From: Clostridium sp.
GTDB taxonomy: Bacteria; Bacillota; Clostridia; Acetivibrionales; Acetivibrionaceae
DNA length: 39,716 bases
Direction of reading: 5' to 3'
Assembly (NCBI GenBank): GCA_012523755.1
Contig: JAAYTO010000115.1
Coordinates: 1-39,716, forward strand
Positions 24,759 through 26,975 of this stretch are shown here, piece by piece. The notes under the pieces are model-generated. The model was given only the letters and a program-made list of their open reading frames with translations, made no database searches and was not told the DNA's origin. A program made the position numbers and the translations under genes. The stretch's first letter is position 1, and the number at the start of each line of letters is the position of its first letter.

Positions 24759-24876
24759 TACTTGGTAGCATAATTAATTTCCGGAGCACTTTGAGCACAA
24801 ACCCAAGGAATGCATTCTTGACATTTTTTAAGATGGGTAATTAGTTTTGTTTAAAACTTGAGGGAACATATTGGAT

Positions 24877-25629
24877 ATGAGCTACTTTAAAACAACAGGA
24901 ATTGTTATAAAAGAAATAAATACCGGAGAGGCTGACAAGATAGTTACGATATTTTCTAAAAACAAAGGAAAGATTTCCTGTTCAGCCCGGGGGGCAAGAA
25001 GGCCTAAAAGCCGCCTTGTGGCGGGTACTCAGCTTTTGTGCTATAGTGAGTTTGTGCTTTTTAAGGGTAAGGACATCTACTCGATTAACAGTTGTGATGT
25101 TATTGAACCCTTTTATGATATAAGAAATGACCTTGAAAGACTTACTTATGCCGCACACATGACAGAACTGATAAACGATGTTATTCAGGAAAATCAGCCT
25201 GCAACCAAGGTTTTGCAGCTGTTTTTAAACTCTCTTTATTTGCTTTCTAAAACCGGCAGATCTCCCATGCAAATAGTCAGGGTATTTGAATTAAGACTCC
25301 TTTCAATTTTGGGCTATGCACCTTCGGTGGGTGGTTGTGTAGTCTGTACAAACAGTCAGTTTGACAGCATGTCTTTTAGCTTTCAAAAGTGCGGTTTTAT
25401 TTGCAAAAGCTGTACAATGCAGGATAAAAGTGCTGTAGAGCTTTCTGAGGGTGCTGCGAAGGCGTTGAATTATATTGTTTACAGCCCACTAAACAGCCTG
25501 TTCAGTTTTGAGGTTTCGGACAGTGTTTTAAATGAACTCGGAAGAATATCAAGAAGGTTCACAAGGGACATATTGGAAAAGGATTACAAAAAGCTGGATT
25601 TTCTCAAAACCTTAAATATCAATACATAA
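24877..25629 (+). CDS. recO: DNA repair protein RecO
   Basis: KTTGIVIKEINTGEADKIVTIFSKNKGKISCSARGARRPKSRL, Cys zinc motif CVVC...CKSC; ORF opens at TTG 24871. Confidence 0.96.
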   Translation: MSYFKTTGIVIKEINTGEADKIVTIFSKNKGKISCSARGARRPKSRLVAGTQLLCYSEFVLFKGKDIYSINSCDVIEPFYDIRNDLERLTYAAHMTELINDVIQENQPATKVLQLFLNSLYLLSKTGRSPMQIVRVFELRLLSILGYAPSVGGCVVCTNSQFDSMSFSFQKCGFICKSCTMQDKSAVELSEGAAKALNYIVYSPLNSLFSFEVSDSVLNELGRISRRFTRDILEKDYKKLDFLKTLNINT

Positions 25630-25653
25630 AAAAAGCTTTTTAATAAAAGCTTA
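25629..25653 (-). terminator. Second minus-strand terminator downstream of the GEMM RNA
   Basis: Minus strand AAGCTTTT-ATTA-AAAAGCTT-TTTTTATG; only the minus direction is followed by a U tract. Confidence 0.7.
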
Positions 25654-25654
25654 T

Positions 25655-25879
25655 AAAAAAAAGGCGGTATAAGGAAATATCGTATGACCTATTTCCCTTA
25701 ATTTATTTTAAAGAGTATAAACAGAACTTTTAATGGTAACCTGGCAATCATGGTTTGGAGCACTCTGCCCTAAACGTTAGACCCAAGGTTTTGCGTCACC
25801 GCCTTTCAGCGATTTTGCCCTGTTTCATAAGTCACAGTTTATATCTCCTTATACCTGTCGGGAGGAAATATTGAATTAT
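25655..25879 (-). ncRNA. c-di-GMP-I (GEMM-I) riboswitch RNA, apparently without a downstream gene
   Basis: Minus strand ACAGGGCAAAAUCGCUGAAAGGCGGUGACGCAAAACCUUGGGUCUAA...AUUGCCAGGUUACC carries the GEMM-I conserved blocks (AGGGCAAA, GAAA tetraloop P2, GACGCAAA, GGNCUAA, GGUUACC). Aptamer core about 25731-25835; U8 tract at 25662-25655. Confidence 0.85.
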
Positions 25880-25885
25880 ATATTT

Positions 25886-25891
25886 ATTATA
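25886..25891 (-). promoter_or_regulatory. Extended -10 promoter element for the GEMM RNA
   Basis: Minus strand TGCTATAAT (perfect TGnTATAAT), weak -35 TTTATT at 17 nt. Confidence 0.6.
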
Positions 25892-26001
25892 GCACATAGT
25901 AAATAAAAAATAAAGATGAATTTTGGATTATTTTATGATTTGTATGTAAAATATTAATTTACGAAAAAAATAAATATAACACTGTAATTTAGAAATAATT
26001 G

Positions 26002-26312: not shown

Positions 26313-26975
26313 ATGTCAGGATATAATCTGGATGAAAACAAGGGAATATTTAGCCTTTTTGGAATCAAAAATCTTACAAAACTTATTAAACAGGGAGCCG
26401 CAATGGATGTAAAGCATTTTAAAATGTATGAATACATGAATTGTACTGTGCTTGAAAAAAGCGAAAATGACATTAAGCTTGAAATGAAAGACCATACACA
26501 GGAGACTCTTTTCTTTCCCGGAGATCATGTTGTTTTGAACTATTCAAACAATAACGAGCTTTATGTTATAGATGGCACTATTGTTTATGTTTTCAGTATT
26601 AATCCTCCGGTGATTAAAGTCAGAATGAATAAATGTGAAAAGTTGAAAAACCTGAGGAAGCATGAGAGGTATTATGTTAGTCTTATGGCCAACATCAGGG
26701 TTTCCGGATCTAATAAGCCATTCTTTGCTGTTGTTAAAAACATGAGTTCCGGAGGAATTAAAATCAACAGTGACGAGCGTCTTATGCCGGAAGATGTGCT
26801 TGAGGTTGAGGTTATACTTGACAGGACAAACAAGCTTGTTTTCAGCGGAGCAGTAGTAAGAAAAAACAAATTAGGAAATTATTTTGAGTACGGAATCGAA
26901 ATTAAAGGAATATCCGAGTCTAATATAAAATGTCTTTACCACTATTTAAAGTGGCTTGGTTCGGAATACAGGTAA
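26313..26975 (+). CDS. PilZ domain protein (predicted c-di-GMP receptor, YcgR-like N-terminal region)
   Basis: LRKHERYYVSL (RxxxR) and VVKNMSSGGIKI ([D/N]xSxxG) PilZ motifs; RBS AAAGGGG. Confidence 0.88.
   Translation: MSGYNLDENKGIFSLFGIKNLTKLIKQGAAMDVKHFKMYEYMNCTVLEKSENDIKLEMKDHTQETLFFPGDHVVLNYSNNNELYVIDGTIVYVFSINPPVIKVRMNKCEKLKNLRKHERYYVSLMANIRVSGSNKPFFAVVKNMSSGGIKINSDERLMPEDVLEVEVILDRTNKLVFSGAVVRKNKLGNYFEYGIEIKGISESNIKCLYHYLKWLGSEYR

Follow-up and report, generated by a model that had tools for sequence, protein, structure and literature searches.

A probable stand-alone small RNA gene with a c-di-GMP-I aptamer, convergent to recO in Acetivibrionaceae

The locus and its c-di-GMP-I aptamer

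The window, by which we mean the whole analysed stretch of 39,716 nucleotides, contains recO and a gene for a PilZ-domain protein, both on the plus strand, and between them a minus-strand region (25629-25891) which the initial annotation had described as a c-di-GMP-I (GEMM-I) riboswitch that has a promoter and terminators of its own but no downstream gene. A cmscan search against Rfam 15 identified RF01051 (c-di-GMP-I) as the sole above-threshold match in the window, at 25829-25732 of the minus strand (71.2 bits, E 3.6e-12, gathering score 35), with model positions 1-87 covered in full. Each of the sequence blocks on which that description was based (ACAGGGCAAA, AUCGCU-GAAA-GGCGGU, GACGCAAA, GGGUCUAA and GGUUACC) is present, as are the extended -10 upstream of the RNA and, at about 25652-25628, a second hairpin with U-run that reads in the minus direction; downstream on this strand lies only the complement of recO. 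The run of eight U residues that had been proposed as the RNA end was also found, but it is not preceded by any local terminator hairpin (0 found): according to the predicted fold, the adjoining stem is a long-range helix (H1; 25855-25842 with 25679-25666) which encloses the whole aptamer. The features of the locus are as follows, in the direction of transcription of the RNA, with the two neighbouring genes at either end.

26313..26975, plus strand: gene for a PilZ-domain protein (PF07238, E 2.6e-16), divergent neighbour
25886..25894, minus strand: extended -10, TGCTATAAT, recognised from sequence and kept in an alignment of 44 copies; conservation rises here (13 genomes)
~25879, minus strand: predicted transcription start, from the extended -10
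25856..25879, minus strand: 5' leader, AUAAUUCAAUAUUUCCUCCCGACA, predicted to be unpaired in the full-length RNA
25873-25860, minus strand: C-rich leader motif, CAAUAUUUCCUCCC, fixed in every copy of group A (the copies beside recO)
25842..25855, minus strand: 5' strand of H1, GGUAUAAGGAGAUA, pairing with 25679-25666; 99.3% of cells paired and near-invariant sequence in 41 copies
25827..25833, minus strand: 5' strand of helix H2, GACUUAU, pairing with AUAGGUC at 25692-25686; 92.7% of cells paired
25732..25829, minus strand: c-di-GMP-I (GEMM-I) aptamer, RF01051, with covariation in P2 and P3
25719..25724, minus strand: CUGUUU, pairing with AAACAG at 25825-25820 (helix H3) and overlapping GUUUAUACUCUU, the predicted anti-H1 strand
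25696..25715, minus strand: H4, a hairpin of variable length (minimum free energy (MFE) fold and alignment)
25686..25692, minus strand: 3' strand of H2, AUAGGUC, from the pairing alignment
25666..25679, minus strand: 3' strand of H1, UAUUUCCUUAUACC, invariant in 41 copies except for the innermost bases
25655..25662, minus strand: U8 run, presumed to be the end of the transcript (T1); almost every copy has a U-rich stretch after H1
25628..25652, minus strand: second terminator T2, AAGCUUUUAUUAAAAAGCUU followed by a U-run, recognised from sequence and probably shared with recO
24871..25629, plus strand: recO (Pfam RecO_N, RecO_C), convergent neighbour

The order of these parts from 5' to 3' is thus the extended -10, a leader of 22-35 nt, GGUAUAAGGAGAUA, GACUUAU, AAACAG, the aptamer, CUGUUUAUACUCUU, H4, AUAGGUC, UAUUUCCUUAUACC and the U-run. 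Changes in H2 are mostly one-sided and of the G-U type. H4 is lengthened by insertions of approximately 50 nt in two relatives belonging to genus g3 (L014 and L016), its loop therefore tolerating expansion. The divergent gene encodes a protein with the PilZ fold of c-di-GMP receptors, and this synteny is kept in the 13 placed genomes of the window's own family (f1).

The ligand contacts G20, A47 and C92 (Vc2 numbering), which we take to be correctly transferred from the Vc2 structure, correspond to G38, A65 and C120 of L006:1538-1727, and all three are invariant in the 41 aligned copies. A G at position 20 is typical of aptamers for c-di-GMP and not of those for cGAMP. In the same alignment P2 is paired in 98.4% of cells and outer P3 in 98.3%, while 14 pairs have changed on both sides, all of them within P2 and P3 of the aptamer, a number reached in 0 of 500 shuffles. 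Judging by these sequence features, the RNA is very likely to bind c-di-GMP.

The genome from which the window originates harbours five GEMM-I elements, namely a tandem pair on contig C235 and single elements on C118, C66 and C121 (the latter being the window), and these copies from the same genome also exceed the RF01051 threshold. In almost all of the f1 genomes examined, tandem GEMM-I elements (L218 (G000:C235), L199, L201-L205, L208, L209 and L211-L214) lie upstream of a conserved gene whose product is a secreted protein of approximately 290 aa; the ribosome-binding site of this gene, GGGAGGAAUUAUU, resembles the complement of the group A leader.

Distribution of the RNA and its genomic neighbourhoods

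When the 263-nt segment 25629-25891 was used as a query against 61 genomes, orthologues and paralogues with 74-91% identity over most of its length were retrieved from all 14 f1 genomes and from five genomes of a second family (f5), mostly with two or three locations in each genome; two further copies of the RNA are located in the genome of the window itself. Exact-pattern matches were obtained in Acetivibrio mesophilus, A. straminisolvens, A. alkalicellulosi, Herbivorax, Pseudobacteroides cellulosolvens and several MAGs. A covariance model spanning the entire RNA, with 182 positions and derived from 41 copies, recovered 45 copies with scores of 119-203 bits in 20 of the 59 genomes of the order, distributed over three families and numbering one to three per genome. 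Since ordinary GEMM-I elements score at most 78 bits, the full RNA constitutes a separate class; outside the order, no full-length copy was detected among 394 genomes drawn from the class, the best other matches scoring 81-87 bits.

All 14 f1 genomes have a copy beside recO, and in one of them this copy is at the end of a contig; in f5, a recO homologue likewise adjoins one copy (L051 in genome G048). Comparison of the window with 13 f1 genomes revealed identities of 0.2-0.5 in the flanks, 0.73 at the -10, mostly 0.8-0.96 across the RNA, 0.63-0.68 at the variable tip of P3 and at most 0.56 after the U-run, so that conservation begins to climb at the promoter and stops at the terminator. The conserved unit of approximately 225 nt, extending from the -10 box to the U-run, consequently exceeds the aptamer, and the free-standing RNA of about this size that the initial annotation had envisaged is upheld by 45 homologous copies of like design. 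We therefore consider it highly probable that the window holds a stand-alone RNA gene which is one member of a family.

The downstream gene is convergent in 39 of the 44 placed copies, and in the other five a same-strand gene begins 191, 461, 537, 645 or 654 nt away; none of the 44 has a same-strand gene within 150 nt downstream. As a control, 20 ordinary GEMM-I loci, nearly all of them from genomes carrying the RNA, were inspected in the same manner, and a same-strand ORF was seen to begin within 100 nt in 18. Same-strand ORFs of 115-122 aa beside L041, L046 and L047 were discounted because they overlap a conserved c-di-AMP receptor gene on the opposite strand. In terms of sequence, the RNA is accordingly delimited as an independent unit, with conserved promoter and terminator boundaries and without a downstream ORF. 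It is a member of the c-di-GMP-I class as far as its aptamer is concerned, and it lacks the defining feature of a cis riboswitch; known riboswitches almost always regulate, in cis, the gene behind them.

The convergent genes vary across paralogues and include recO, genes for beta-lactamase-like, T2SSF/TadC-like and FeoB-like proteins, a NarL-type regulator and a c-di-AMP receptor. The last of these (PF06153) is the convergent neighbour of the group B copies L030, L041, L046 and L047 of genus g2, and L049 is divergent from a gene for a CdaA-type diadenylate cyclase, c-di-AMP genes thus flanking a c-di-GMP RNA.

Folding, leaders and the proposed output of the RNA

The RNA of the window folds with -62.3 kcal/mol (z -3.7 relative to shuffles), and the invariant 14-bp helix H1 is part of the MFE structure in 43 of 44 copies. 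Standard pairs occupy 97.2% of the pair cells in the alignment of 41 copies. H1 and H3 vary too little for covariation to speak for or against either helix, the one exception being a compensatory change from U-A to C-G in H1 of the most divergent copy (L025 in G023). P1 of the aptamer is kept in 97.5% of cells with zero covariation, and a local 3' hairpin is likewise kept across copies, with no covariation detected in it.

Folding of the growing transcript predicts that the GGAG of H1 pairs successively with the leader, with a CUCUU strand and finally with UUUCC. The second of these pairings, in which AAGGAGAUAUAAAC is joined to GUUUAUACUCUU (containing CUCUU) and which would compete with H1, is maintained in 92% of cells and covaries weakly. 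As GUUU is common to H3 and to this anti-H1 pairing, ligand binding could be coupled to T1. Keeping the aptamer core open costs 0.1-8 kcal/mol, which is within reach of a ligand bound at nanomolar concentrations, and thermodynamic folding predicts, for most copies, that H1 forms and the leader stays free irrespective of the core being held open; as equilibrium folding of these copies keeps H1 in both cases, any switching would have to be kinetic. Pairing of the leader to the GGAG strand was no better than that of shuffled leaders (p 0.07-0.56). The proposed RNA would start at its own promoter and end at the U-run adjoining H1, and the aptamer, once bound by c-di-GMP, would bias the succession of partners taken by the H1 strand that contains GGAG (leader, then CUCUU, then UUUCC), thereby altering termination at T1, the availability of the leader, or both.

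The leaders fall into five groups, with the sequences UAUUUCCUCCC (group A), UUAUACUCCCCUUU (group B), UCUACCUCCCUU (group C), AAUUCCCCUAC (group D) and AACCUCCUAUUU (group E), which are essentially identical within a group across species and genera and have only a CCUCC-like core in common. In full-length folds they are on average 72-92% unpaired, depending on the group, and the RNA therefore possesses what is expected of the seed of a trans-acting sRNA, namely an unpaired, C-rich leader that is fixed within paralogue groups. Such a leader would constitute the output of the RNA by pairing, in the manner of an anti-Shine-Dalgarno sequence, with the ribosome-binding sites of other mRNAs, different paralogues then carrying different seeds; we advance base-pairing in trans tentatively, as a mode of action with somewhat less than an even chance of being correct. 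A leader peptide starting from the AUG in UUAUGAAACAGG was also considered and rejected, its frame being dependent on the aptamer stem and its stop not being kept in all copies.

Targets were sought in 13 genomes. Extended complements of leaders B and C occur no more often there than a reversed-pattern control, while matches to the complement of leader A are enriched about twofold over the control, as expected from the resemblance of this motif to a Shine-Dalgarno sequence. The ribosome-binding site and start codon of pilM (type IV pilus) display two-block complementarity to leader C (-17.7 to -19.4 kcal/mol in the seven f1 genomes displayed). This match also occurs in genomes without a C copy, and among 384 initiation regions it ranks in roughly the highest few percent, only moderately above background, so that pilM is put forward as a lead only.

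A natural deletion bears on the location of the output. L052 (G002:C1:1394695-1394782), in a genome which, by its size, appears to be that of Acetivibrio thermocellus ATCC 27405 (3,843,301 bp), is a group B copy from which exactly the aptamer is missing, the lost stretch running from UUAUG to the AAAA before GUUCUG. Its leader and H1 match those of sister species, the flanks differing by an insertion of one or two T residues. Drift is seen in H2 and H4, which have no role left once the aptamer is gone. Retention of the leader and H1 after loss of the aptamer seems to place the output in these two parts rather than in c-di-GMP binding as such, and in this lineage the loss would leave an ungated sRNA.

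On balance we favour, with some reserve, an autonomous sRNA gene of approximately 225 nt in which the c-di-GMP-I aptamer forms part of a stand-alone non-coding RNA, and not of an mRNA leader, and in which the 5' leader represents the output. Its membership of a family which is conserved in cellulose-degrading clostridia (Acetivibrio and relatives) and has been duplicated repeatedly points to an sRNA with a regulatory role that would be directly gated by c-di-GMP, and the RNA is probably a stand-alone, merRNA-like sensor of this ligand which acts through its leader.

Of the three readings offered in the initial annotation, that of a ligand-sensing sRNA or sponge persists, the conserved paralogue-specific leaders and the natural aptamer deletion inclining the choice between these two towards an sRNA with an output of its own. 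A sponge or store, that is, an abundant and stable RNA buffering c-di-GMP as proposed for the merRNA of Bdellovibrio, would accord with the predicted intactness of the aptamer, with the one to three copies per genome and with a basic design shared with merRNA (a stand-alone GEMM-I RNA without a conserved downstream ORF). It would, however, require neither an invariant 14-bp H1 nor fixed leaders specific to each paralogue, and the copy that dropped its aptamer and retained the rest argues, by placing the output in the leader and H1, against a pure sponge, an explanation that we hold to be unlikely.

Rather less probable is a role as an antisense gate, in which c-di-GMP would disrupt H1 and T1 and a polymerase reading through would transcribe the convergent gene (recO in the window) in antisense. 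The adjacency of H1 to the U-run, the conservation of the competing anti-H1 pairing and the high proportion of copies facing a convergent gene are all compatible with such a gate, for which recO had been suggested as the object. The RNA nevertheless ends before recO, with the second terminator in between, and paralogues face unrelated convergent genes or none; moreover, a classical second terminator occurs within 160 nt downstream in 21 of 45 copies, including the four f5 copies that have no convergent gene. On present evidence, recO does not appear to be a target of the RNA.

Alternatively, the leader could be conserved because a transcription factor binds where transcription starts, the body of the RNA acting otherwise. 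The leaders do sit directly at the predicted start, and in groups B and E the motif TTGTACA occurs twice in the promoter, close to -35 and at +1, an operator-like repeat seen in L028, L040, L043-L045 and other copies of these two groups. Yet the C-rich part is located downstream, at a distance of 10-25 nt from the start, and it is the CCUCC-like core that is common to all groups while the TTGTACA part is not, which makes this an improbable account. The notion of a relic whose gene was lost, which had been raised on account of the absent cis gene, is contradicted by strong conservation in three families, by a conservation of 80-96% over the greater part of the unit among 13 genomes, by duplication, by a covarying aptamer and by invariant ligand-contact residues, and can be practically dismissed. 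Taken together, conservation, duplication and the varied context of the paralogues indicate that the RNA is neither a relic nor specific to recO.

A conserved, duplicated family present in many genomes demonstrates that selection can maintain 'orphan' riboswitches as genes in their own right. Its natural variants, including the aptamer deletion in what is apparently A. thermocellus, a cultured degrader of cellulose, offer material for asking whether c-di-GMP can act through sRNAs in trans.

Comparison with known systems

With c-di-GMP-I riboswitches (RF01051) the present RNA shares aptamer sequence, P2/P3 architecture, the GAAA tetraloop and the ligand-contact residues; unlike ordinary members of this class, it is situated outside any 5' UTR and is enclosed by its own conserved helix and terminator. 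The Bc1 c-di-GMP riboswitch of Bacillus thuringiensis possesses a dual terminator, of which T1 unfolds in the presence of ligand (PMC11218506). Both RNAs thus have a c-di-GMP-I aptamer followed by two successive terminators, but Bc1 has downstream genes.

In Clostridioides difficile, an orphan c-di-GMP-I riboswitch with no known function is located between CD2517 and CD2517.1, and RCd11 and RCd12 are riboswitch-associated antitoxin RNAs of prophage type I systems (PMC11477304). Like the present RNA, these are c-di-GMP-I elements without an ordinary mRNA behind them; unlike for RCd11/12, no toxin gene was seen beside the RNA loci examined. Two further GEMM-I elements with ordinary scores, L207 (G009:C1:4181792-4181867) and L216 (G005:C1:176834-176909), are followed about 195 nt on by a convergent gene for a 108-aa XRE-type HTH protein and possibly represent a second, unrelated orphan c-di-GMP-I RNA.

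SreA of Listeria, as cited in PMC3627812, is a trans-acting RNA that arises as a by-product of a cis riboswitch, and Rli55/EutX of the eut loci (named in PMC7602753 and PMC5821096) is another riboswitch-derived trans-acting RNA. In each case a metabolite aptamer resides in an RNA that acts elsewhere than on its own downstream gene, as is proposed for the present RNA. EutX acts through protein sequestration. The ligands of these RNAs are others, while the gene described here is stand-alone and its leader differs by paralogue.

An earlier description of the present family was not found in the open-access full-text literature. Closest in kind is merRNA of Bdellovibrio bacteriovorus, a single, massively expressed, stand-alone RNA of 445 nt which carries a c-di-GMP riboswitch, has no conserved downstream ORF, has been proposed to serve as a c-di-GMP store and is reported from Bdellovibrio only (PMC3627812). 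Although both are stand-alone c-di-GMP riboswitch RNAs without a conserved downstream ORF, the present family is set apart by its description, being clostridial, approximately 225 nt in length, multi-copy and equipped with paralogue-specific leaders and a conserved H1, and as a stand-alone c-di-GMP RNA it differs from those already known.
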